Shown piece by piece: positions 3,402 to 35,997 of a DNA stretch of 56,020 nucleotides (the stretch's first letter is position 1; each line of letters begins with the position of its first letter). Location: positions 1 to 56,020 of the forward strand of contig JAAZXC010000004.1 of NCBI GenBank assembly GCA_014240365.1. Reading direction: 5' to 3'. The translations under genes and the position numbers were made by a program. The notes under the pieces were generated by a model, which worked only from the letters and a program-made list of their open reading frames with translations, had not been told where the DNA came from and did no database searches. The stretch is from Acidimicrobiales bacterium. Lineage in GTDB: Bacteria; Actinomycetota; Acidimicrobiia; Acidimicrobiales; MedAcidi-G1.

Positions 3402-4508
3402 CTAGCCGCGTGCCCGTGTCAGGGCATCGGTGAACTCGATCTCGAAGTCACCGGTGTCCCTGATGAACTCAAGACGCTTCATCGTCTCTGCCGACGGGTA
3501 GATGATCTGGTTGTCCAGAACCTCCTGGTCGATGAACTCCTCGGCAGCCCCGTTCGGGCTGGCATACCAGTTGAAGTTGGTCAGCTGGGCACCGTTGTGG
3601 GCGTCCAGCAGGAAGTTCATGAAGGCGAACGCCGTGCACGGGTGCGGGGCATCAGCCAGGACGGCCATACCGTCCACCCAGATCGTGCCTCCCTCGTCGG
3701 GTACGAAGTAGGTGTACTCGCTCTCACCCTCCTCGAAGTCCCACAGGAAGTTGCCGCTGTAGCCGTGGCCGACGATGGTCTCACCGCTGACGACCAACTC
3801 GCTGTACTGATCGGAGTCGAACGCCGCGAGGCGACCGACTGCGTCGGCGAGGACCGCCTCGGCCTCAGCCAGCTCGTCGACTGACGTCGAGTTCAACGAG
3901 TAGCCCAGATACTTGAGCGCTGCGCCCACGGTCTCCCGTGGATCGTCCAGCAGGGTGATGGCACCGTCCAGCCCGTACTGCTCGGCCAGGTCGGCGTCAA
4001 ACAGCAGGCCCCAGGTCAGTGGCACGTCACCGGTCACCCCGAGGTCGACACCGACACCGGTGGTTCCCCACTGGTAGGCCGATGTGTACGTGCTGCCCGG
4101 ATCGAAGGGCGGGTCAGCGAACTTGTCTGCGATGTTGGACCGGTTGGGAACCGCCGCAACCTGAACCGGCTGGATCATCGCCTCTGAGATGAGGATCGAG
4201 ATCATGTAGTCGGACGGAACAATCATGTCGTAGCCGGATCCGCCGTGCTCCACCTTGGCGAACATCTCCTCGTTGGACGGGTAGAAGTCCTCGATGACCG
4301 AGACCCCGAACTCATCCTGGAACGCCGCGATCAGGTCAGGGTCCATGTACTCGGACCAGTTGAAGAACGCCAGATCGCCGTCGGTCTCCCCGAAAGCGCA
4401 CTGCTTGAAGGCCGAGGCCTCGTCGGCGTCGCTTCCACATCCGACGGCCACGACGCTGATCACCCCCAGCAGGGCTACCGCTCGCATCCACTTCCTCATA
4501 TCTTTCAC
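3402..4508 (-). CDS. potD: Polyamine-type ABC transporter substrate-binding lipoprotein (PotD family)
   Basis: A 368-residue extracytoplasmic solute-binding protein. The N-terminus has a basic start (MKDMRKWMR), a hydrophobic stretch and a lipobox ending VAVGC at residue 24, so the mature protein should be a lipoprotein anchored outside the membrane. The mature start LAFFNWSEYMDPDLIAAF and the segment GYDMIVPSDYMI are typical of the spermidine/putrescine-binding PotD/PotF family, as is the later YSGNFLWDFEEGE region. It should deliver polyamine, or a related amine or betaine-like ligand, to the PotB/PotC channel. It overlaps potC by 4 bases and is followed by a strong hairpin, an arrangement often used to make more binding protein than membrane subunits. 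The exact ligand is not decidable from sequence alone. Confidence 0.92.
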   Translation of the reverse strand: MKDMRKWMRAVALLGVISVVAVGCGSDADEASAFKQCAFGETDGDLAFFNWSEYMDPDLIAAFQDEFGVSVIEDFYPSNEEMFAKVEHGGSGYDMIVPSDYMISILISEAMIQPVQVAAVPNRSNIADKFADPPFDPGSTYTSAYQWGTTGVGVDLGVTGDVPLTWGLLFDADLAEQYGLDGAITLLDDPRETVGAALKYLGYSLNSTSVDELAEAEAVLADAVGRLAAFDSDQYSELVVSGETIVGHGYSGNFLWDFEEGESEYTYFVPDEGGTIWVDGMAVLADAPHPCTAFAFMNFLLDAHNGAQLTNFNWYASPNGAAEEFIDQEVLDNQIIYPSAETMKRLEFIRDTGDFEIEFTDALTRARG

Positions 4509-5362
4509 CTTTCCTCCCTCCCCGAGCCAGTTGCTCGGGAGAACACCAGCGATGCCAGCACGAGGCTGATCGACGCCGTCAACATCACGACCGACACGGA
4601 GTTCACGAGAGGGCTGACGCCCTTTCTCAACATGCCGAACACGTACACGGAGATCGGGGTGGCGCCTACAGCCGCCACGAAGCTGGAGACGACGACGTCA
4701 TCCAGCGAGATGGTGATCGCCAGGAGGGCACCACCGATCACGCCCGGCATGATCTGCGGAAGCGTGACCCGCCGAAACGCCTGCCACCGGTTTGCATAGA
4801 GGTCGGCCGCCGCCTCCTCCATGGAGGCGTCGAGGTTGGCGAGGCGTGCCCGTACGACCACCGAGACAAACGAGATGTTGAAGGCCACATGGCTGAAGAC
4901 CAGCTTCTCCAGGCCAGACGTGAGGTCTATGCCGGGGATTACGTTGAACCACTCGGCCGTCTCGCCGAAGAACACGAGCATCATCACGGCCATGGTGACG
5001 TCGGGAATGATGATCGGGAGGTAGAGAACCGCATCGAAGGCCTTCTGGCCCCACCATCGGAAGCGTTCCAGGGCCAGGGCGCTGGCGGTGCCGAGTACCA
5101 CGGCTATGACCGTGGAGAAGAGGCATACCTTGACCGACACCCAGATCGACTCCTGGACGTTGTCGTTGTCCAGGAATGCCTCATACCAGCCGAAGGTGAA
5201 GCCCTTCCAGTTGCCCACCGCGTTGCTGTCGTTGAACGAGAAGATGAACAGGACCACGATGGGCGCGTAGAAGAAGACGAAGACGAGCAGCGAGTGGCCG
5301 CGCAACCACCATCTGGAGAACCCCTGGGGCTCAGCGGTCGACCTGGCGACGCCCTTGTTCAC
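4505..5362 (-). CDS. potC: Polyamine-type ABC transporter permease PotC
   Basis: A 285-residue integral membrane subunit with about six hydrophobic helices, beginning GHSLLVFVFFYAPIVVLFIF. The permease coupling region (EAAADLYANRWQAFRRVTLP, then GVIGGALLAITISLDD) contains the EAA loop that contacts the ATPase. The SLDDVVVSSF motif is typical of PotC/PotI. It forms the translocation channel with PotB. Its gene overlaps potB upstream and potD downstream, each by 4 bases, so all are translated as one coupled unit. Confidence 0.93.
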   Translation of the reverse strand: MNKGVARSTAEPQGFSRWWLRGHSLLVFVFFYAPIVVLFIFSFNDSNAVGNWKGFTFGWYEAFLDNDNVQESIWVSVKVCLFSTVIAVVLGTASALALERFRWWGQKAFDAVLYLPIIIPDVTMAVMMLVFFGETAEWFNVIPGIDLTSGLEKLVFSHVAFNISFVSVVVRARLANLDASMEEAAADLYANRWQAFRRVTLPQIMPGVIGGALLAITISLDDVVVSSFVAAVGATPISVYVFGMLRKGVSPLVNSVSVVMLTASISLVLASLVFSRATGSGREER

Positions 5363-6279
5363 AGGTTCTTCGCTCCGGACCGGAAGTACAGCAGGGTGCC
5401 GAGCAGCATCACAGCCAGCACAACAACGGAGACGGCCGCTCCGACCGGGCCGTTCCGAGCGGACAGGAACTGCAGCACGATGTAGCTGCCCAGCAGGCCC
5501 TCCTTGTTGCCTCCCAGGATCGCCGGTGTGACATAGGCGCCGAAGCTCGGAATGAACACCAGGATCGAGCCGGCTATCACCCCCGGCTTGGACAATGGCC
5601 AGACCACGCGCCGGAATGCACCCCAGCCATTGGCGTAGAGGTCCCGGGCCCCTTCCACGAGGCTCCAGTCGATCCGCTCGATGGCCGCGTACAGGGGCAG
5701 GACCATGAACGGCAGGTATCCGTATACCAACCCAAGGATCACCGCGCTGGTGGTGAACAGGATGCGGCCGTCGCTGAGGCCGGTGGCCTGGACCATCTGC
5801 GTCACCAGCCCGTCACTGTCCAGCAGGACCCTCCAGGCATATGTACGAATAAGGAAGTTGGACCAGAACGGGATCATGATCCCGATGAGGAGCAGGTTGC
5901 GCGTGACAGCGCTGCGCGTGGAGATGAAGTAGGCCAGCGGGTAGGCCAGCAGGATGCAGATGACCGTGGTCAGCGCTGCCACCCAGAGGGACCGCCACGC
6001 AACCGTGAGAACGATGTCGTCTCCGAGGCGGGCATAGGCGTTGAGGTTCCAGTCCCGGAGTTCCGTCCGGCCGCTGCGGGTCCGGGTGGCGAACGAGTAG
6101 GCGACGACTATCCCCAGGGGGATGACGAAGAAGATCAGCAGGTAGAGGATGGCCGGCAGGCCGAGCAGGAACCCCTGGCGGGCCTTTGCCCGCTCGGCCT
6201 GGCGTTCCAGCCCCGGCGTCGCCAAAGGGGATGGATCGTCCACGCCGAGTTCCTCGTCAGGCGGAGCCGTGACGGACAT
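5359..6279 (-). CDS. potB: Polyamine-type ABC transporter permease PotB
   Basis: A 306-residue inner-membrane permease. After a charged N-terminal tail of about 35 residues the first helix (GLPAILYLLIFFVIPLGIVV) is followed by a periplasmic loop and further helices. WSNFLIRTYAWRVLLDSDG and the EAA-like GARDLYANGWGAFRRVVWPL segment are PotB/PotH signatures, and IPSFGAYVTPAILGG is the conserved late helix. It is the heterodimer partner of PotC. The start codon shares a base with the potA stop (TGATG), indicating tight coupling. Confidence 0.93.
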   Translation of the reverse strand: MSVTAPPDEELGVDDPSPLATPGLERQAERAKARQGFLLGLPAILYLLIFFVIPLGIVVAYSFATRTRSGRTELRDWNLNAYARLGDDIVLTVAWRSLWVAALTTVICILLAYPLAYFISTRSAVTRNLLLIGIMIPFWSNFLIRTYAWRVLLDSDGLVTQMVQATGLSDGRILFTTSAVILGLVYGYLPFMVLPLYAAIERIDWSLVEGARDLYANGWGAFRRVVWPLSKPGVIAGSILVFIPSFGAYVTPAILGGNKEGLLGSYIVLQFLSARNGPVGAAVSVVVLAVMLLGTLLYFRSGAKNL

Positions 6280-7376
6280 CAGCCGGTTACCACCGCGGCG
6301 TATCCGGGTTCGAACGACACCGTTACGTCGTCTCCGACGTCACGCCGGTCCATGGCCAGGGTGGCTGGACAACGGACCTCTAGATGCATCCAGTCGATGC
6401 CGATTCCATAGACGATCGCGTTGCCCAGGTAGGTGACCGTCTCCACCCGGCCCTCCAGGTGGTGGAGGCCCGGAGGTGCCTCGCCACGACGATGCACCGT
6501 GAGGCGCTCCGGTCTGACGGTCACAGCCACGGCTTCGCCCGATGGCTGATCAGATGGCAGGCGGAGGCGCTGGCCGTTGGCCAGGACCACCTCGTCGGCC
6601 GAGGCCACCGTTGCCTCCAGGAAGTTGCTCTGTCCTATGAAGCCGGCCACGAACCGGGTGGTGGGTCGTTCGTAGATGGCCTCCGGTGTGTCCACCTGGA
6701 GCAGGCGACCATCGTGCATGACGCCGATCCGGTCGCTCATCGTGACCGCCTCCTCCTGATCGTGGGTCACGTAGACAAAGGTGATCCCGACCTCGCGCTG
6801 GAGGTTCTTCAGCTCGTACTGCATCTGCTGGCGGAGCTTCAGGTCCAGAGCACCCAGCGGCTCGTCCAGAAGGAGCACCTCTGGCCGGTTCACGAGCGCC
6901 CTGGCGAGGGCGACGCGTTGCTGCTGGCCTCCGGAAAGCTGCCCGGGCTTGCGATGGGCCAGGCTGCCCATCTCCACGAGCTGGATGGCCCAGTCGATCA
7001 GATCGGCACGCTCTTCGGCCGGGACCTTGCGCATCTCCAGGCCGAATCCGATGTTCTTCGCCACCGTCATGTGGGGGAAGAGGGCGTAGTTCTGAAACAC
7101 CGTGTTGACGGGTCGTTTGTTGGGCGGCCGTAGCCCCATCTCCTCACCGTGGATCCGGATGGAACCGGCGGTCGGGAGCTCCAGGCCGGCGATCATGCGG
7201 AGGGTGGTCGTCTTGCCGCAGCCTGATGGACCCAGTAGCGAGAAGAACTCGCCGTCGTCGATCGTGAGATCGAGGTTGTCCACTGCTGTGACCTCGGTAC
7301 CCGACCGGTCCCCGAACCGCTTGACGACTCCGTGAAGCTCCACCGCCGTTCGCGGCCCGTCTGTTGTGTCATGCAT
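6279..7376 (-). CDS. potA: Polyamine-type ABC transporter ATPase PotA
   Basis: An ATP-binding subunit of 365 residues using the ATG at 7376, which has a GGAGG 10 bases upstream. An in-frame start at 7430 exists but adds a glycine-rich tail and lacks this signal. Walker A is GPSGCGKTT (about residues 49-57), followed by the Q-loop ([11 protein letters not shown]), the [15 protein letters not shown] signature, Walker [13 protein letters not shown] and the switch histidine in THDQEEA. A C-terminal TOBE domain (VRPERLTVH onward) is typical of PotA/UgpC-type importers. It powers uptake through PotB/PotC and is the first gene of the operon. A 9-base dyad lies upstream, between it and the divergent oxidoreductase gene. 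Confidence 0.93.
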
Positions 7377-7455
7377 CGACTCAGGTCCTCCCCCTGCCTC
7401 ATCGACTCCCCCACCCGCAGGCATTACCATCCGGGATGTGCCGGATGCTACTGAT

Positions 7456-8992: not shown

Positions 8993-10432
8993 ATGTACCC
9001 CCGACCGGATGTAGCACCCGGCGACGCCACCGAAGACCCCCGGTACCGGATGGTGTCGCTCTGGCACGACACGGTGCCCGGCTCGTTCGCCCCCCGCACG
9101 GCTCTGCCCGGCGACCGGGACGTCGACGTGGCCATCGTGGGCGCCGGCTACACCGCGCTGTGGACCGCGTACCACCTGCTCCGCCTGGACCCGACGATCC
9201 GGGTGGTGGTCCTGGAACGGAAGGTCGCCGGCTACGGCGCCTCGGGTCGCAACGGTGGATGGGCGCTCGGCGAGTACAGCATCAGCCCCATGGACTGGGC
9301 GGCCCGTGCCGGCACCGGTGCCGCACTCCGCCAGATGCGCGCCCTGTACGACGCCATCGACGACATCGGGCGGGTGGCCGAGGCCGAAGGCATCGACTGT
9401 CATTACGCCAAGGGCGGCTGGATCGATCTGGCCCGAAGCCCGGTCCAGGCCCAGCGGATCGCCGCCGGGGTCCGTGCACGACATGACCTGGGCCTCTCGG
9501 CCGACGACGTCCGCTGGGTGGGCGCCGACGAGGCCCGCCGGTTCTGCAATGCCACAGATGTGGTTGGCGGCTGGTTCAACGCGCACGTCGCTGCCATCCA
9601 CCCATGCCGACTCGTACGGGGGCTGGCCGAAGTGGTCGAGAGCCTCGGCGGGACCATCCACGAGGAGACCGCCGTCCTCTCGATCGAACCGGCGGACGGT
9701 TCCGGATCGGCCCGTGTGGTGACCGACAGGGGAACGGTCCGAGCCGAGGTCGTAGTGCGCGCCACCGAGGGCTACACCCGGGACCTCGCCGGTCACCGCC
9801 GCACCATCGCCCCCGTCTACTCCATGATGGTGGCCACCGAGCCGCTGTCGGCTGACGTCTGGGACGAGATCGGCCTGGCTGATCGCCCCACCTTCGGAGA
9901 CGGTCGGAACCTCATCATCTACGGCCAGCGGACCGCCGACGGCCGCCTCGCCGTAGGCGGTCGTGGTGCCCCGTACCGGTTCGGCTCGAAGCTGGTTTCC
10001 ACCACCGGCGCCCACCACCCGATCCACGACGCGGTGGAGGCCACCATCCGACAGATGTTTCCCATGGTCGGCGACGCCGCGATCACCCACCGGTGGGGTG
10101 GCGTGCTGGGCCTCTCCAGGGACTGGACGCCGTCGGTCGGCCTGGACAGGGCTACCGGCACGGCGTGGGGAGGCGGCTACGTGGGCGACGGCGTGGCCAC
10201 CGCCAAGCTGGCCGGCCATACCATTGCCGAACTGATCACCGGGACCGGGAGTGAACGGACCGACCTGCCATGGGTCGACCACCTGGCCCGGAAGTGGGAA
10301 CCCGAGCCGTTCCGCTGGATCGGCATCAACGCCGGCCTCCGCCTGGCGGCGAGTGCCGACCGGGCCGAGGCCAGGACCGGCCGCCCGACCCGCCGGATCG
10401 ACTGGTTGAACCGCCTCCTCCGACGTTCCTGA
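8993..10432 (+). CDS. Second FAD-dependent oxidoreductase of the DAO family
   Basis: A 479-residue protein starting at the ATG at 8993; the open frame extends further upstream but that part lies inside the preceding gene in another frame. It has the Rossmann-type VDVAIVGAGYTALWTAYHLL start (about 44-63), then GYGASGRNGGWALGE, and a C-terminal THRWGGVLGLSRDW and GGGYVGDGVATAKLAG flavin-binding end. It is a paralogue of the preceding gene in overall design. Tandem pairs may form a hetero-oligomer or act on successive substrates. The context (pot transporter, aminotransferase) suggests amine or N-methyl amino-acid oxidation; the substrate is unknown. Confidence 0.85.
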   Translation: MYPRPDVAPGDATEDPRYRMVSLWHDTVPGSFAPRTALPGDRDVDVAIVGAGYTALWTAYHLLRLDPTIRVVVLERKVAGYGASGRNGGWALGEYSISPMDWAARAGTGAALRQMRALYDAIDDIGRVAEAEGIDCHYAKGGWIDLARSPVQAQRIAAGVRARHDLGLSADDVRWVGADEARRFCNATDVVGGWFNAHVAAIHPCRLVRGLAEVVESLGGTIHEETAVLSIEPADGSGSARVVTDRGTVRAEVVVRATEGYTRDLAGHRRTIAPVYSMMVATEPLSADVWDEIGLADRPTFGDGRNLIIYGQRTADGRLAVGGRGAPYRFGSKLVSTTGAHHPIHDAVEATIRQMFPMVGDAAITHRWGGVLGLSRDWTPSVGLDRATGTAWGGGYVGDGVATAKLAGHTIAELITGTGSERTDLPWVDHLARKWEPEPFRWIGINAGLRLAASADRAEARTGRPTRRIDWLNRLLRRS

Positions 10433-20989: not shown

Positions 20990-21010
20990 ACGGTGTAGGT
21001 ACCTCAGGCG
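20983..21010. terminator. Bidirectional stem-loop at the LLM/permease convergent junction
   Basis: CGCCTGA (20983-20989) and TCAGGCG (21004-21010) form a perfect 7-base stem that contains the stop codons of both convergent genes. The 14-base loop holds the whole intergenic region. Confidence 0.4.
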
Positions 21011-23085
21011 ACGGGGGCAGGAGCTCCTGGGGCCGGCATGACGTCCTCCGGGCCGACGATGGTGAGTTGGTCGTCGGATTCCAACACCAGGCTGTCGTCG
21101 ACCAGCAGCGGCACGCCGAACCGGGTCACCGCAGCCACCTCCACCCCCTCGGGGAGGTCCAGGCCCCCCACCCGTCGACCAATGAGGTCAGCGTCGCGCC
21201 CCTCCGGCAGCAGTGCGTACTGACAGACGGCCCAGCCCGGCAGGAGCGAGGACTTCACCTCGGCCTCCGTGGTGGCCAGGCCGCAGGCTCGGGCGCCGGA
21301 GTGGAGGAACCCAGCCAGCTCGCCGGCCAGGCGCAGGGACCGACCCGGGTCCGACGACGTGCCGGCCAGGAAGAACAGGGCGTTCACCAGCTCGCCGGAC
21401 CCGCCCCAGGCAGCCGGAATCCGGATCCCCGCAGCGGCACGCACGATGACCAGCTGATCGGTCTGGATTGCGTCGAAGAGTGCCACCGGCGTGGCTGTGG
21501 GGTGATCGTCCGACGGCTGGATCCAGAGCGACCCCGTCTCCAGGAACCGCTCGGTGACGAGCTCCGTCGGCACGCCAATGCGGTCCGACAACACAGCCGC
21601 CGCACGGGCCGCAGCCTCCGTGATGTCCGTGCCGGCCGGCACGGACAGGACCACCGCTCGGGCAATGAGGCCCGGATAGTCGTCAACCGATCGCAGGCCG
21701 TGCCCGGCCATCGCAGCGCTGATCTCGCGTTCCAGGGTCTCATCTACTCCCCGGCCCCAGCGGCGGAACACGTGGCGGATGGCCCCGGCCCGATCGGTCC
21801 GCGGGGTGGCGTAGAGGTGGTGCCACGCCCAACCCAGGGCGGACACGACGACCACGAAGACCAGGGCGGAGACCCCCAGGCGCACGATCAGGTAACCCGA
21901 GATGGCCATGCCGGCGAGTTGGGTGAACGGGTACAGGGGCGACCGGAAGGCCGGTGCGTACGACCTGATCTCCGATGCACGCAGCACCAGCACGGCCAGG
22001 TTCACCAGACCCAGGGTGAGGAGTACGAAGGCGCTGGCCAACTTGGCGATTGACTCGATATCGAAAGCCACGACGACGAAGGCAATGGCCGCCCCTGTCA
22101 TGACGACACCGACGACCGGGGTGCCGAACCGGCTGAGGGTTCCCATCCGTGCCGGTAGGAGGCCATCGCGAGCCATTGCCATCGGATAGCGGGCAGCGGC
22201 CAGGATCCCGGCGTTCACCGCCGAGGAGAAGGCGGCCAGTGCCGCCACCACGACCAGCCAGACGCCGACCTTCGGAAGGATCGCCTGTGCAGCGGTGTGG
22301 ACGGGGGCCAGGTCACCGTGCAGCACGTCAGGTGGCACCAGGGCGACGACGACCAGGACACCGAGTGTGTAGAGCGCCGTGGCGGTGGCCAACGAGAGGG
22401 CCATACCCAACGGGATGCGGTGCGAGGGATCCTCCACCTCCTCGGCTGCACTGGCCACCTTGGTGAGGCCGCCAAACGACACGAACACCAGGCCGACCAC
22501 GGTGGCGATCCCGGATACCCCCGTGGTGAAGAACGGGTCCAGGTTCGAGCCGTCAAAGCCGCGCGAGGCGGTCTCCGCCAGCCCTTCGACGATGAACCAG
22601 GCCATTGCACCCAGCACCACCACCACCAGGACCAGCTGCAGCGAGGCGCTGGCCTTGGACCCCACCACGTTCACCAGGGTGAACATGGCTATGAGCACCA
22701 GAGCGAGAACCGTGGCGTTCACGTCCAGGATCAGCACCAGGTAGGCAGACATGCCAACCATGGCGAAGGCGTCCTTGAGTACCAGCGAGAGCCAGGTGCC
22801 GAACCCGGCAACGGTTCCCACCGCCGGGCCCAGAGCCCGCTCCAGGAAGTAGTAGGCGCCACCGGCCTTGGGTAGCGCCGTGGCCAGCTCCGACACGCTG
22901 AGCATTGCCGGTACGGCCAGCAGGCCCGCCAGCAGGTAGGCCAGCGCCGCCGCCGGCCCGGCCTTCGCGGCGGCGATACCCGGCAGCAGGAACAGTCCGG
23001 AGGAGAGCATCGCCCCCGTCGAGAGGGCGAAGACGTGCCGGAGCCCCAGCGAGCGGGTCAGCCGGCCATGGTTGCCCTTTCCCAT
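21004..23085 (-). CDS. APC-family amino acid/amine permease fused to EIIA-like and TrkA-C-like domains
   Basis: A 693-residue fusion. Residues 1 to about 425 form an APC-superfamily permease with about 12 helices (FALSTGAMLSSGLFLLPGIA at helix 1, LPKAGGAYYFLERALG, then FVSFGGLTKVASAAEEVEDP). A cytoplasmic part follows. About residues 450-605 resemble a PTS EIIA type-2 domain (VALFDAIQ, then NALFFLAGTSSDPGRSLRLA). About 615-685 look like a TrkA-C ligand-sensing domain (LIGRRVGGLDLPEGVEVAAV, then DDQLTIVGP). In the EIIA-like part the position of the phosphorylated histidine is Asp538. It probably imports an amino acid or amine under allosteric control by the soluble domains. Neighbours are convergent or separated by 100 bases, so it is its own unit. 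Confidence 0.85.
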   Translation of the reverse strand: MGKGNHGRLTRSLGLRHVFALSTGAMLSSGLFLLPGIAAAKAGPAAALAYLLAGLLAVPAMLSVSELATALPKAGGAYYFLERALGPAVGTVAGFGTWLSLVLKDAFAMVGMSAYLVLILDVNATVLALVLIAMFTLVNVVGSKASASLQLVLVVVVLGAMAWFIVEGLAETASRGFDGSNLDPFFTTGVSGIATVVGLVFVSFGGLTKVASAAEEVEDPSHRIPLGMALSLATATALYTLGVLVVVALVPPDVLHGDLAPVHTAAQAILPKVGVWLVVVAALAAFSSAVNAGILAAARYPMAMARDGLLPARMGTLSRFGTPVVGVVMTGAAIAFVVVAFDIESIAKLASAFVLLTLGLVNLAVLVLRASEIRSYAPAFRSPLYPFTQLAGMAISGYLIVRLGVSALVFVVVVSALGWAWHHLYATPRTDRAGAIRHVFRRWGRGVDETLEREISAAMAGHGLRSVDDYPGLIARAVVLSVPAGTDITEAAARAAAVLSDRIGVPTELVTERFLETGSLWIQPSDDHPTATPVALFDAIQTDQLVIVRAAAGIRIPAAWGGSGELVNALFFLAGTSSDPGRSLRLAGELAGFLHSGARACGLATTEAEVKSSLLPGWAVCQYALLPEGRDADLIGRRVGGLDLPEGVEVAAVTRFGVPLLVDDSLVLESDDQLTIVGPEDVMPAPGAPAPVA

Positions 23086-23184: not shown

Positions 23185-24165
23185 TCAGGAGCAGGCGTCC
23201 AGGAAGTCCAGCAGAAGGGCGTTGACCCCTGCAGCGTCCTCCTGCTGCATCCAGTGACCTACGCCCGGCAGGACCACCGAATCGTGCAGTCCCGGCAGGG
23301 TCTCGGGGTAGCGGGCGATGCTGCCGGCTCCCCAGATGGTGGGGCCGTCCTTCTCCCCACCGATGTAGAGCGACGGCTGGTGGATCGGCGCCTCACGCCA
23401 GGCCCGCAGGTCGACCCAGTCGTGGTCCACGCAGCGGTAACGATTCAGGCCGCCCGAGAACCCGGCCCTGGCGAACTCCCCGACGTAGAAGGCGAGGTCG
23501 TCGACGCCCTGCCATGCCAGCGGACCCGTCGGATAACGGAATCGGTCGTCGAGGCGGCCACCGGCGGAGACGGCAAAGCCGGCCGGTTCCCCCGGGAGCG
23601 GTGGCGGTGCATCACCCGATGCGCTGAAGATCATCCCCTCCAGCCAGCGGGCCGGATCGGTGCCGATCTCCGCCTCGGCCACGCCGGGTTCCTGGAAGTA
23701 CTCGATGTAGAACGTGTCGTCGCCGCCCATCATCCGGAACAGGTCGGTGGGTCGGAACCCGTTGGGCGGGGTATAGGCGACGCTCAACAGGGCGACCGCC
23801 CGGAACACCTCCGGGCGCAGCAGCGCCGCCGTGCTGGCGATCGGCGACCCCCAGTCGTGACCCACGATCACGGCCCCGTCCCCACCCAGAGCCTCGACCA
23901 CCCCCACGCAGTCCCCGACCAGGTCGACCAGGCGGTAGGCGTCCACCCCGGTGGGGCACTCCGACGACCCGTAGCCCCGAACGTCGATCGCCACGGCCCG
24001 GTAGCCGGCCGCCGCCACCGCCGGAAGCTGGTGACGCCACGAGTACCACGACTCCGGGAAGCCGTGGACGAAGAGCACCATCGGACCCTCACCCACCTCG
24101 GCCACGTGGATACGGGTACCCCGTGCGTCCACGTCATGGCGAACCAGACCCTCTATCTCCATCAT
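23185..24165 (-). CDS. Alpha/beta hydrolase, epoxide-hydrolase-like
   Basis: A 326-residue alpha/beta hydrolase read from the ATG at 24165, which overlaps the upstream dioxygenase stop (ATGA). The oxyanion motif is HGFPESWYSWRHQLP, the nucleophile elbow is GHDWGSPIA with Asp as nucleophile, and the late histidine is in LPGVGHWMQQED. Asp nucleophile plus HGFPESW is the pattern of soluble epoxide hydrolases; fluoroacetate or haloalkane dehalogenases share it. It is the third gene of an overlapping set with an HD oxygenase and a GBBH-like dioxygenase. Its part in that pathway is not obvious: neither TmpA nor TmpB chemistry needs it. Confidence 0.85.
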   Translation of the reverse strand: MMEIEGLVRHDVDARGTRIHVAEVGEGPMVLFVHGFPESWYSWRHQLPAVAAAGYRAVAIDVRGYGSSECPTGVDAYRLVDLVGDCVGVVEALGGDGAVIVGHDWGSPIASTAALLRPEVFRAVALLSVAYTPPNGFRPTDLFRMMGGDDTFYIEYFQEPGVAEAEIGTDPARWLEGMIFSASGDAPPPLPGEPAGFAVSAGGRLDDRFRYPTGPLAWQGVDDLAFYVGEFARAGFSGGLNRYRCVDHDWVDLRAWREAPIHQPSLYIGGEKDGPTIWGAGSIARYPETLPGLHDSVVLPGVGHWMQQEDAAGVNALLLDFLDACS

Positions 24166-25277
24166 GGTGTGCTGCCTTCCGTCGGGTTCCCGATACTGCC
24201 GTGTACCCAGTCCCGATCCAGGTAGCAGCCCTGCAGGTACCGGTCCGGGTCGGACTCCCCCGCCCGACCGTGGAGGACCCGTTGGTTGTCGAACACCAGA
24301 CACTCGCCCGGCGACAGCGTGAACCGGTACTCCATTTCAGGGCGGTGCAGAAGATTTGCAAAGGACCGGTACGCCTCGTAGAAGCCGGACATCTCCGCGT
24401 ACGCCATGTCGAACGGTGCGGCCGACCGGTTGTTGTAGCTGACCGCCAGCACCACCCCACGGTCGTCCACCTCGATGACGGCTGCCCGGTTCCGGAGGTC
24501 GAAGCCGTCACCCCTCCACCGGAACGGCACCCTGTGGCCGGACAACATGTCGAAGGCACCCCGATCCTCGCTGCGCAGCGTCTCGGCTGCGCTGAAGCCG
24601 TCGACAAGCACGGTCACCCCGCCGGCCTGACTGGCCACGAGGCAGTGGAGGAGCTGGATCCCGGGCACCGGCCGCCGGTACGGGTTGTCGGTGTGCACGT
24701 TCAGCGCCCGCGGCGTGAACGCCAGGTTCACCGGCTCGGCCTCGGCTCGAACGTGGAACACCTCGCCGTAGTTGGTCTCCCTTATCGGCCCCCAGATCCC
24801 GGCTACTTCAGCAATTGACGGACCCGTCGGTTCGTGACCAGATGCCAGGCCATGAACGATCGCCAGGCCGTCGCGCACGAGGGCGGCAGTCGCAGCCGAC
24901 CTCGCCGACGGGTCGTCACGCCGTGACCACGCCAGCCGGCACGGGTCGAGGTCAGCCGCCAGCCATGGCACCGCCTCCGGGGAGCCGCGCTCCAAGCCGT
25001 CGTAGCGGTGTGCCTCCAGCCATTCGGCTTCGAAGGTGCTAACCACCCCATCCGGTCCGAACTCCACGCACAGACGACCGTCGACCACCTCGGCCGACGT
25101 GATCACCACCTCGTCCGCCAGCTCCGAGATGTCGAACAGGCGCTGGTCGTTGACCACGTCACGCGAGGCGTCGTCGCGTGCATTGTCCCGCAACCAGATT
25201 GCGTGGAACCTGGCAGGACCGTCCGCCAGGTCCAGGGTCAGCACGTCGGGCCGCAGCGCCGTGACATGGAGGCCCAT
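24162..25277 (-). CDS. Gamma-butyrobetaine-hydroxylase-like Fe(II)/2-oxoglutarate dioxygenase (TmpA candidate)
   Basis: A 371-residue protein starting at the ATG at 25277, whose bases overlap the stop of the HD gene (TGATG). The open frame continues upstream, but that region is coding in the HD gene. Residues 1-100 form the GBBH N-terminal domain (FHAIWLRDNARDD). Residues 105-360 form the TauD/GBBH catalytic fold. The iron site is HTD at His195/Asp197 (LNVHTDNPYRRP) plus a distal histidine near 336 (FDNQRVLHGR). The zinc cysteines of classical GBBHs are replaced by Ala33, Asp35 and Ser38. GBBH homologues paired with HD-family oxygenases are known to be TmpA, which hydroxylates N-trimethyl-2-aminoethylphosphonate. 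The alternatives are gamma-butyrobetaine or trimethyllysine hydroxylase. Pairing favours TmpA, but this is inference. Confidence 0.85.
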   Translation of the reverse strand: MGLHVTALRPDVLTLDLADGPARFHAIWLRDNARDDASRDVVNDQRLFDISELADEVVITSAEVVDGRLCVEFGPDGVVSTFEAEWLEAHRYDGLERGSPEAVPWLAADLDPCRLAWSRRDDPSARSAATAALVRDGLAIVHGLASGHEPTGPSIAEVAGIWGPIRETNYGEVFHVRAEAEPVNLAFTPRALNVHTDNPYRRPVPGIQLLHCLVASQAGGVTVLVDGFSAAETLRSEDRGAFDMLSGHRVPFRWRGDGFDLRNRAAVIEVDDRGVVLAVSYNNRSAAPFDMAYAEMSGFYEAYRSFANLLHRPEMEYRFTLSPGECLVFDNQRVLHGRAGESDPDRYLQGCYLDRDWVHGSIGNPTEGSTP

Positions 25278-25819
25278 CACAGGCGGAATTCCAGCGAATC
25301 CAGCAGCGGGCGCCATTCGTCGAGCGCCGGAATGTCCAGGTCGGCGACCTTGCCGCCATCGTCGAAGGACCGGAGGGTAAGGGCATCGGCTGCGAACGCC
25401 TCGGCCTCGAACGCCTCGGCCTCGGTGGCCGACATGGCACCCCCCTGGAGCCTCAAGGTCCCCACCGATGCCGGGCTGAGCTGCTCCTCGTAGGCCGGGT
25501 CCACGAAACATCGGAACCGCTTGGCCGCGACGTGCAGCCGGACAGGCTCGCTGACCGCCGCCACGAACCGTTCGGCCAACCAGGCTCCTCCCGTCGTGCC
25601 GTGGTCGGTAACCCCGAACTCCGAGTCCGGCTCGGCCAGGAAGTGCCCGACGTCGTGGAGCAGGGCCGCCAGCACGAGGGCGTCGGACGCACCGGAGGCC
25701 CCGGCCAGTGCCGCTGCCTGCAGGGCGTGCTGCTCCATGGAAACCTGCTCTGCGTAGTTGTTCCCACCAGCGGCGGCGAACAACCCCAGGACCTCGTCCG
25801 TGACGTGCATGACGCGCAT
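25277..25819 (-). CDS. HD-domain mixed-valence di-iron oxygenase (PhnZ/TmpB-like)
   Basis: A 180-residue HD-superfamily protein. Candidate metal ligands in order are His31 (SMEQHALQAA), His55-Asp56 (ALLHDVGH), His59 or His73, His96 (VRLHVAAKRF) and an acidic pair at 153-154 (FDDGGK). The upstream Tyr22 and Glu24 (NNYAEQVS) recall the Tyr/Glu gate of PhnZ, and LQGGAMSATEAEAF is a segment shared by that family. PhnZ and TmpB cleave the C-P bond of 1-hydroxyphosphonates with O2, giving phosphate plus glycine (PhnZ) or glycine betaine (TmpB). Family members are often misannotated as phosphohydrolases. It is first in an operon with the GBBH-like gene, as expected for tmpB-tmpA. An in-frame Met at residue 4 is an alternative start. 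Confidence 0.8.
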   Translation of the reverse strand: MRVMHVTDEVLGLFAAAGGNNYAEQVSMEQHALQAAALAGASGASDALVLAALLHDVGHFLAEPDSEFGVTDHGTTGGAWLAERFVAAVSEPVRLHVAAKRFRCFVDPAYEEQLSPASVGTLRLQGGAMSATEAEAFEAEAFAADALTLRSFDDGGKVADLDIPALDEWRPLLDSLEFRL

Positions 25820-25841
25820 TCTGCCCGCTGGGGAAGCCCGT

Positions 25842-25868
25842 GGCGAGCTCGCCTAGATTCGACTCGAA
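25842..25868. promoter_or_regulatory. Two adjacent palindromes in the divergent HD-oxygenase / acyl-CoA dehydrogenase gap
   Basis: GGCGAGCTCGCC (25842-25853) is a perfect 12-base palindrome, and TTCGA-C-TCGAA (25858-25868) is a second perfect dyad five bases on. TAGATT at 25854-25859, between and touching them, fits a plus-strand -10 element for the acyl-CoA dehydrogenase gene. These are probable operators for the divergent pair. Confidence 0.5.
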
Positions 25869-25908
25869 CCCGCCCCCAGAGGGCGCCGCCAAGCACTAGG
25901 ACGCACCC

Positions 25909-34677: not shown

Positions 34678-35997
34678 ATGGGTGCCGTCACGCTCCTGCC
34701 CAGGTACGACCGGAACAACGGCTGGTTCGAGACCCTGACCGAGGTGCCACCGGCCGCACCGCTCTCCGGTCCCACGAAAGCCGACGTGGTCGTCGTGGGC
34801 GCCGGTTTCACAGGACTGGCGGCCGCCCGCAGGCTGGCCGAACTGCGTCCGGACGCCCACATCCTCCTGTTGGAGGCCGGACGCATCGGCAACAGCGCAG
34901 CGGGACGGTCGTCGGGGTTCGGCATCGACCACGCCCACAACGTCCGATCCAAGGGCTTCGCCGACACCGTCGAATTCGAGAAGCAGCAGATCGCCCTGAA
35001 CCGGGTCGGCCTCTCGTACCTCGAGGAGGCGGTGACCACCCACGGCATCGACTGCGACTGGTCGTGGACAGGCAAGACCCATGCCGCCTGTACCGACCGG
35101 GGCGCCCGGGACCTGAAGCACTTCGCCTCGACCCTGGACCGGATCGACGAGCCGTACGAACTGCTGGAGGCCGACGCCATGGTCGACCGGCTAGGTATCG
35201 ACTACTACCACCAGGGCCTCCACACGCCGGGAACCGCGCTCATGCAACCCGCTGCCCTCTGTCGGGGGCTGGCGGCCACCCTGCCGGACAACGTGGTGGT
35301 CCATGAGGAGACCCCGGTGACCTGGCTGGACGCTGGACCACCCCACGAACTGTGGACCGACGGGGGCAGCGTGCGAACCCCCGAAGTGCTCTTGGCCAAC
35401 AACGGCTTCCTGGCCGGGTTCGGCTTCTACCGAAAGCATCTCATCCCGGTCGTCACGTGGGGCTCGATGACCCGACCGTTGACCGCCGAGGAGTCGGCCT
35501 CCATCGGCGGACATCGCACCTGGGGGGTGATCCCGGCCGCCCCGTCGGGCACCACGGTGCGCCGCCTGGCCGACGGCCGGATTCTCGTACGAAACGTCTA
35601 CTCCTACAGCCGCCACTCACTGGCCGGAGGGCGCCGCCGCCAGCGGGCCGCCCGGTCCCACCGGAAGGCCTTCGAGGCTCGTTTCCCCGGCCTCACCGAC
35701 GTGCCGTTCGAGTACACGTGGGGCGGGGCGTTGAGCATGGCCCGCAACGGCGAACCGGTCTTCGGGACGCTGGCCGACGGCATCTCGGCCGCCGGCGTCC
35801 ACAACGGCACCGGGCTGAGCAGGGGCACCATCTGTGGGAAGTTGATCGCCGAGATGATGAGCGGCGAAGGCTCCGACCTTCTGGACGCCATGCTCGGTCG
35901 GGGCCGACCCAACCGCAACGTGCCCGACCCGGTCCTCGGGTGGGGCGTTGACCTGTACGCCCGCCGGCTGCGACTGCAGTCCGGTCTCGAAATGTGA
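34678..35997 (+). CDS. FAD-dependent oxidoreductase of the DAO family (third copy)
   Basis: A 439-residue flavoprotein preceded by a strong GGGGGAGG ribosome-binding site. It has ADVVVVGAGFTGLAAARRLA (about 36-55) and GNSAAGRSSGFGIDHA at the flavin. The C-terminal YTWGGALSMARNGEPVFGTL and NGTGLSRGTICGKLIAE close the fold. It is more similar in plan to PuuB than to sarcosine oxidase, and sits directly after a PuuC-like dehydrogenase. Oxidation of a gamma-glutamylated or N-methylated amine to an aldehyde or imine would fit. Substrate not identified. Confidence 0.87.
   Translation: MGAVTLLPRYDRNNGWFETLTEVPPAAPLSGPTKADVVVVGAGFTGLAAARRLAELRPDAHILLLEAGRIGNSAAGRSSGFGIDHAHNVRSKGFADTVEFEKQQIALNRVGLSYLEEAVTTHGIDCDWSWTGKTHAACTDRGARDLKHFASTLDRIDEPYELLEADAMVDRLGIDYYHQGLHTPGTALMQPAALCRGLAATLPDNVVVHEETPVTWLDAGPPHELWTDGGSVRTPEVLLANNGFLAGFGFYRKHLIPVVTWGSMTRPLTAEESASIGGHRTWGVIPAAPSGTTVRRLADGRILVRNVYSYSRHSLAGGRRRQRAARSHRKAFEARFPGLTDVPFEYTWGGALSMARNGEPVFGTLADGISAAGVHNGTGLSRGTICGKLIAEMMSGEGSDLLDAMLGRGRPNRNVPDPVLGWGVDLYARRLRLQSGLEM

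Follow-up and report, generated by a model that had tools for sequence, protein, structure and literature searches.

The window, a stretch of 56,020 nucleotides from the metagenome-assembled genome of an Acidimicrobiales bacterium (GenBank assembly GCA_014240365.1, contig JAAZXC010000004.1, positions 1 to 56,020), carries on its minus strand two overlapping genes, one for an HD-domain oxygenase and one for an Fe(II)/2-oxoglutarate dioxygenase. We regard them as probably an acidimicrobial variant of the TmpB-TmpA pair that would cleave a quaternary aminoalkylphosphonate oxidatively, N,N,N-trimethyl-2-aminoethylphosphonate (N-trimethyl-AEP) being the likeliest substrate. The pathway itself is already known; the pair of the window is a divergent lineage of it.

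The gene pair and its enzymes

The TmpB-like gene (P0001, 180 aa; 25277..25819, minus strand) precedes the gene of the TmpA-like dioxygenase (P0002), which is of the TauD/gamma-butyrobetaine hydroxylase (GBBH) type, has its stop-side end at 24162 and spans 24162..25280 (GTG start) or 24162..25277 (ATG start), also on the minus strand. The junction reads TGATGG. With the ATG at 25277 the genes overlap by 1 nt (TGATG), as a preliminary description of this DNA had reported, and with the GTG at 25280 by 4 nt; the second start is the better candidate because a 4-nt-overlap start (ATG or GTG) is open in 13 of 15 fetched relatives (exceptions, L113 and the fused locus L116). Both open reading frames (ORFs) and the motif blocks given in that description, among them the PhnZ/TmpB-like spacing of metal ligands and the LQGGAMS block of the HD protein, are present in the sequence.

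Searched against all PDB sequences (E <= 1), the HD protein has four matches, TmpB (6npa; 101.6 bits, E=4.1e-28) and three of PhnZ (82.3-82.9 bits). Its AlphaFold model (predicted local distance difference test, pLDDT, 93.9) matches ten PDB chains in Foldseek at E<0.001, all of them PhnZ or TmpB (query TM-score, TMq, 0.81-0.89); phosphohydrolase and MIOX folds appear solely at E>0.1 (MIOX, E 1.3). The modelled fold cannot separate TmpB from PhnZ. All six metal ligands (H...HD...H...H...D) align with those of TmpB and PhnZ (6npa/4mlm): His31 (25727..25729), His55-Asp56 (the HD motif; 25652..25657), His73 (25601..25603), His96 (25532..25534) and Asp153 (25361..25363), all on the minus strand. 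By analogy, a mixed-valent di-iron site is expected.

The dioxygenase has seven PDB matches at E<=0.01: TmpA (6npb; 279.5 bits, E=3.3e-82), three forms of human GBBH (130.6-130.8 bits), DfmD (99.2 bits) and two weak ones. In the dioxygenase tree, 46 TmpA rows form one clade apart from GBBH, DfmD and paralogs, with a support (87/86) that lies under the 95/80 mark; within it the window clade (the window, 14 genomes of the same genus and G032 of another genus) has support 100/100. By score and by tree the enzyme is thus closer to TmpA than to GBBH or DfmD, as previously suggested.

The Fe facial triad of TmpA (HxD...H) is present, with the His-x-Asp ligands (HTD) at 24687..24695 and the distal His (VLHG) at 24270..24272 (minus strand, by alignment). 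The phosphonate ligands of TmpA are described in the DfmD paper (PMC9296572) as N187, N287 and R288, with human BBOX counterparts N191/N293; by alignment, their equivalents in the window are Asn (24726..24728) and Asn-Arg (24426..24431), minus strand, and all three are kept in 16/16 window-clade rows. Numbering was checked on the structures (6npb chain, constant offset 6, giving N187, N287 and R288; 4bg1, N191 and N293 directly). Arg288 also occurs in 7/7 sister-genus rows, in 22/22 other TmpA rows (including L046, whose locus has no HD match), in L160 and L233, and in 2 of 16 paralogs (L209, L213) chosen from the stronger dioxygenase matches, the weaker being left out; the position is Ala in GBBH and, by alignment, Pro or Thr in DfmD. 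What we take to be the aromatic cage, from BBOX work, is kept except for a Phe at Tyr190.

Pairing, gene order and fusions

The HD gene lies beside a TmpA-type dioxygenase gene, as expected of TmpB. A scan of public genomes returned 318 stretches with dioxygenase relatives; among the best 80, which were kept, 79 loci have an HD relative. The order of the window, HD gene first, is found in 16/16 window-clade loci. The reverse, dioxygenase first, holds for all seven loci of the sister genera (L119-L125) and, among the 73 loci L030-L102, for the 72 that have an HD match. Plasmids yielded 24 records with HD relatives, all at <60% identity.

In two relatives the enzymes are fused. In L116 (the contig of L028) HD protein and dioxygenase form one frame of 563 aa with no stop; in L160 (G067 contig C111, from another family of the same taxonomic order; 706-2928) a phosphodiesterase/nucleotide-pyrophosphatase-like domain (PF01663), the HD oxygenase and the TmpA-like domain share one frame, and this frame runs off the contig end. 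Each fusion is seen in one metagenome-assembled genome, and where genes overlap, as in L116, an assembly error of one base could be enough to join them. From its domains, the L160 protein may hydrolyse a phosphonate ester before oxidation.

Other acidimicrobial HD genes have other surroundings. One of the sister-genus group (L118, G025; 9748-10275) has no TmpA-like gene in the fetched stretch, and the HD oxygenases of L126-L153 and L155-L156 have a PhyH protein upstream; the best match of the PhyH protein of L130 is methylphosphonate hydroxylase (NF052437, 260.3 bits, cut-off 500).

Weighing the assignment

Best PDB matches, phosphonate-binding residues, the dioxygenase tree, pairing and fusions all speak for a TmpB-TmpA pair, as the preliminary description had it; several results, gathered here and with the transporter genes below, weigh against it. 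The curated equivalog cut-offs are missed. For the HD protein the top NCBIfam model is TIGR03276, the HD-domain phosphonate oxygenase family (185.7 bits, cut-off 214.6), followed by TmpB (NF049941, 139.0, cut-off 300) and PhnZ1 (134.9, cut-off 300); the dioxygenase scores 351.9 bits with TmpA (NF049936, cut-off 400) and 281.8 with GBBH (TIGR02409, cut-off 414.75). In the comparison with TmpA/TmpB, PhnZ and GBBH, which had been recommended, TmpA and TmpB rank first in the PDB, and no curated cut-off is reached by either protein, so the NCBIfam pipeline would not name the pair TmpA/TmpB. The TmpA cut-off is passed by 9/10 genomes chosen for TmpA loci, the miss being the fused clade member G479. 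PhnZ chains also rank above TmpB chains in the Foldseek search with the HD model, the cage residue Tyr190 is Phe in 16/16 window-clade rows, and two dioxygenases with HD neighbours (L160, L233) are placed not in the TmpA clade but in a poorly supported part of the tree.

The substrate-gating lid of the HD protein is a further such point. In PhnZ and TmpB a YxxE loop provides a Tyr that binds Fe2 until substrate draws the Glu in (PMC8177086). The window has Tyr22-Ala-Glu24 (25748..25756, minus strand), a lid shortened by one residue to YxE, with the distance from Glu to the first His unchanged. Among 95 HD rows scored, this form is found in 16/16 window-clade rows, where the TmpB-type lid is absent, and in 8/8 of the sister genera; the other TmpA-paired rows have YxxE (26/28) except for L160 and L233 (YxE). 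The lid of the window looks like that of the acidimicrobial PhyH-paired HD proteins (including L154), which have YxE in 24/27 rows (YxxE in 2, one unscored); the remaining 16 rows have YxxE (7), YxE (5), YxxxE (2) or other forms (2, one of them a truncated PhnZ row). Since it occurs in several groups, YxE is widespread in the HD family and not unique to the pair. Despite the shorter lid, its Tyr would be expected, by analogy with PhnZ and TmpB, to cap the O2-binding iron before substrate arrives.

The lid suggests a partner swap, in which a TmpA-type gene joined an HD gene of the PhyH-paired lineage, and a constrained HD tree of the full set, with the window clade and sister genera placed among the PhyH-paired acidimicrobial HD proteins, had a likelihood 32 log units higher. 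The first HD tree opposes this: in it TmpB shares a clade (97/89) with the window clade, the sister genera, 25 proteobacterial rows and L160, and L030 and L233 lie outside. So does a reduced set without long branches (77 of the 95 rows; dropped as long or short, L160, L030, L145, L234, L235, L136, L233, L101 and PhnZ; thinned as near-copies, L103, L108, L114, L115, L110, L245, L238, L241 and L225): here an unconstrained search arrived at the TmpB grouping, with a likelihood better by 21.7 units, although the alternative uniting all Acidimicrobiia survives the approximately unbiased (AU) test (p 0.062). On the full set, an HD tree constrained to unite all TmpA-paired rows, including L030 and L233, scored 14.5 units lower and likewise survived the AU test (p 0.189). 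A TmpB kinship of the HD protein is favoured by these sequences, not shown.

The TmpA row of L030, from a record titled Mesoflavibacter sp. isolate ih5, adjoins the window clade (91/97) and has A-B order; our impression is that the record title is doubtful for its chromosome.

Proposed chemistry and substrate

TmpA hydroxylates C1 of its substrate, after which oxidative C-P cleavage at the di-iron site of TmpB gives phosphate and glycine betaine (PMC10574752, PMC8177086). Because the window pair is kin to these enzymes, the same chemistry is proposed for it. The phosphonate would be taken up, perhaps by an ABC transporter of PhnC/D/E type whose genes lie elsewhere in the genome. The TmpA-like enzyme would then hydroxylate C1 using Fe(II), 2-oxoglutarate and O2, the aromatic cage enclosing the trimethylammonium group and the equivalents of N187, N287 and R288 binding the phosphonate; and the HD protein, with its mixed-valent di-iron site and a second O2, would cleave the C-P bond to phosphate and glycine betaine. 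N-trimethyl-AEP is the likeliest predicted substrate.

A somewhat bolder idea, which we hold to be doubtful, is that Acidimicrobiia carry their own lineage of phosphonate oxygenase pairs, marked by reversed gene order, short lid and in part by single chains, which uses a phosphonate other than N-trimethyl-AEP or passes the hydroxylated intermediate between fused sites. Rather unlikely, too, is that the same two steps act on mono- or dimethyl-AEP, on 2-aminoethylphosphonate (AEP) itself or on another phosphonobetaine; the missed equivalog cut-offs, the Phe at Tyr190, a lid shortened at the amine-contacting Glu and the Ser found at N287 in 7/7 dioxygenase rows of the sister genera would agree with such a substrate, but the window keeps the aromatic cage and all three phosphonate ligands, and TmpA is by far its top-scoring solved enzyme.

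Genomic neighbourhood

Upstream of the pair, a short divergent intergenic region (25820..25908) separates it from an acyl-CoA dehydrogenase (ACAD) gene and presumably holds its promoter. In an alignment of 15 loci its conservation is merely scattered and no Pho-box-like motif is evident by eye; Rfam gave no matches in the window at gathering scores.

Across the genus the surroundings are syntenic, with ACADc, alkylsulfatase, CaiB, MttB, DapA and aldehyde dehydrogenase genes on one side and an epoxide-hydrolase-like (EH) gene and an APC permease gene on the other; EH was not found in L113, nor CaiB and ACADb in L116, and shorter stretches end early. The pair has different neighbours in L119-L125. 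The pair is missing from genome G011 (94% complete), where ACADc, alkylsulfatase, CaiB, MttB, DapA, EH and the permease are nevertheless retained (20 window genes compared; no match for ACADb, which lies further off, or for some genes beyond the fetched stretch); the neighbours therefore persist where the pair is absent. In its place G011 has 1,265 bp between ACADc and EH (L169, 9676-10940), with ORFs resembling a toxin-antitoxin pair and a short segment that matches the surroundings of the HD start in the relatives. In G005 (85% complete, a genus member without a full HD relative) no close ACADc match was found.

The third gene, EH, overlaps tmpA in the window, as previously noted, whereas 744-803 bp lie between tmpA and the next gene in 13 of 15 relatives. 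A pathway gene was considered for this interval and rejected: it holds a PIN-domain ORF (PF01850, 47.9 bits, cut-off 23.6) and a ribbon-helix-helix (RHH) antitoxin-like ORF (PF22513, 24.0 bits, under the cut-off of 27), a toxin-antitoxin-like pair present downstream of tmpA in L105-L117 and missing in the window, L103 and L104.

That the pair forms part of an extended betaine/carnitine operon, together with the MttB-like, CaiB-like and EH genes, is accordingly very improbable: genus-wide synteny and the overlap of EH with tmpA in the window would fit it, but G011 and the toxin-antitoxin interval remove the support for a joint betaine operon, EH is not found in L113 and L119-L125 have other neighbours. 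The link to MttB and CaiB drawn in the preliminary description is contradicted by G011, which keeps both genes without the pair. We give hardly any credence to the reading that automatic annotation would take from the Pfam labels (TauD, and HD below its own cut-off), namely a gamma-butyrobetaine hydroxylase with an HD phosphohydrolase of no related function next to it; the nearby CaiB-like and acyl-CoA dehydrogenase genes might also suggest it. Against it, the GBBH model scores below that of TmpA, Arg288 is present, the solved-structure matches of the HD protein are TmpB and PhnZ alone, no phosphohydrolase or MIOX fold matches its model below E 0.1, and relatives carry HD-dioxygenase fusions.

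Further genes of the window are noted here for completeness. An APC amino-acid permease gene with a C-terminal TrkA_C domain (21004-23085) lies downstream of the pair and EH on the same strand and is kept in G011; an ABC transporter (3402-7430; SBP_bac_8, two permeases and an ATPase with TOBE_2) lies near two class-III aminotransferase genes; and the best NCBIfam match of an FAD oxidoreductase (34678-35997) is TIGR03329, putative aminophosphonate oxidoreductase, at a score far under the cut-off (129.9 of 632.8 bits).

Distribution and transport

Of the 17 genomes of the genus, 15 encode a full-length HD relative, and so do 9 of 20 from other genera in the family. The window genome has four MttB-family genes. 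A search for PhnJ, in which E. coli was the positive control, gave no match in any of 18 genomes; this counts in favour of the assignment.

Transport bears on the assignment in both directions. Among the genes beside the pair, none was recognised as a transporter or regulator specific to phosphonates, which tells against it. A 5.5-kb contig of the same genome carries PhnD-, PhnC- and PhnE-like genes, of which PhnC (333 bits, cut-off 266.1) and PhnE (232, cut-off 216.7) pass and so speak for it; TIGR01098 (179.7, cut-off 112.05) passes too. PhnD, by contrast, falls short of its equivalog cut-off (125.3 of 261.1 bits). PhnD-type proteins (PF12974), encoded in 34 of 37 family genomes, do not follow the pair: they are present in the pair-less G005 and G011 and absent from the pair-bearing G030 and G034. 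A dedicated PhnD-type transporter tracking the pair is thus unsupported. On contig C3 of G000 (L257, 3762-5502) a second PhnE-like gene looks split by eye, its other part lying on the opposite strand past a kinase-like ORF; rearrangement or misassembly is possible.

Novelty and significance

Marine oxidative phosphonate use is counted with phnZ/tmpB models. A survey of marine phnZ (PMC9381506) reports 72% as alphaproteobacterial and some as cyanobacterial, and its main text uses none of the words Actinobact, Acidimicrob and tmpB. No report of the acidimicrobial B-A lineage, of the short lid or of bacterial HD-TmpA fusions was found in the literature covered, which includes parts of PMC12263773 and PMC9381506 and few subscription papers and is weak evidence of absence. 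An HD relative occurs in most genomes of one acidimicrobial genus, and the pair falls below curated annotation cut-offs. How HD oxygenases shield their di-iron site could be studied with the short lid as a natural test case, and the fused proteins would, if they are confirmed, be ready-made single-chain enzymes.

Comparison with known systems

TmpA/TmpB of Leisingera caerulea (6NPB/6NPA) share with the window the enzyme families, Fe ligands, N187/N287/R288 and adjacency of the genes; their order is A-B and their lid YxxE, whereas the window has B-A and YxE, and between the HD motif and the third His the window protein is four residues shorter than Leisingera TmpB. The window dioxygenase is 39-45% identical to proteobacterial homologues (best 80 of 318) and under the equivalog cut-offs. 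PhnY/PhnZ (2-AEP) and PhnY*/PhnZ1 (methylphosphonate) share the HD-oxygenase family and the two-step logic, but PhnY is a PhyH-type hydroxylase, as is PhnY*, whereas that of the window is of TauD/GBBH type. PhoF of Fonsecaea multimorphosa, a fused PhnY-PhnZ, resembles L116/L028 and L160 in combining a hydroxylase with an HD oxygenase in a single chain; it is fungal, PhnY-type and acts on AEP and APP (PMC10574752). In contrast to PhoF, the HD domain precedes a TmpA-type domain in the fusions of the relatives, and the genes of the window are separate. BBOX, the gamma-butyrobetaine hydroxylase, has the same family, Fe ligands, aromatic cage and two Asn, but an Ala in place of Arg288, and the window dioxygenase scores 130.8 bits with it against 279.5 with TmpA. 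DfmD belongs to the same superfamily and shares the substrate of TmpA (PMC9296572); it differs from the window dioxygenase by a Ser in place of N187 and Pro or Thr in place of R288, and matches it with 99.2 bits.

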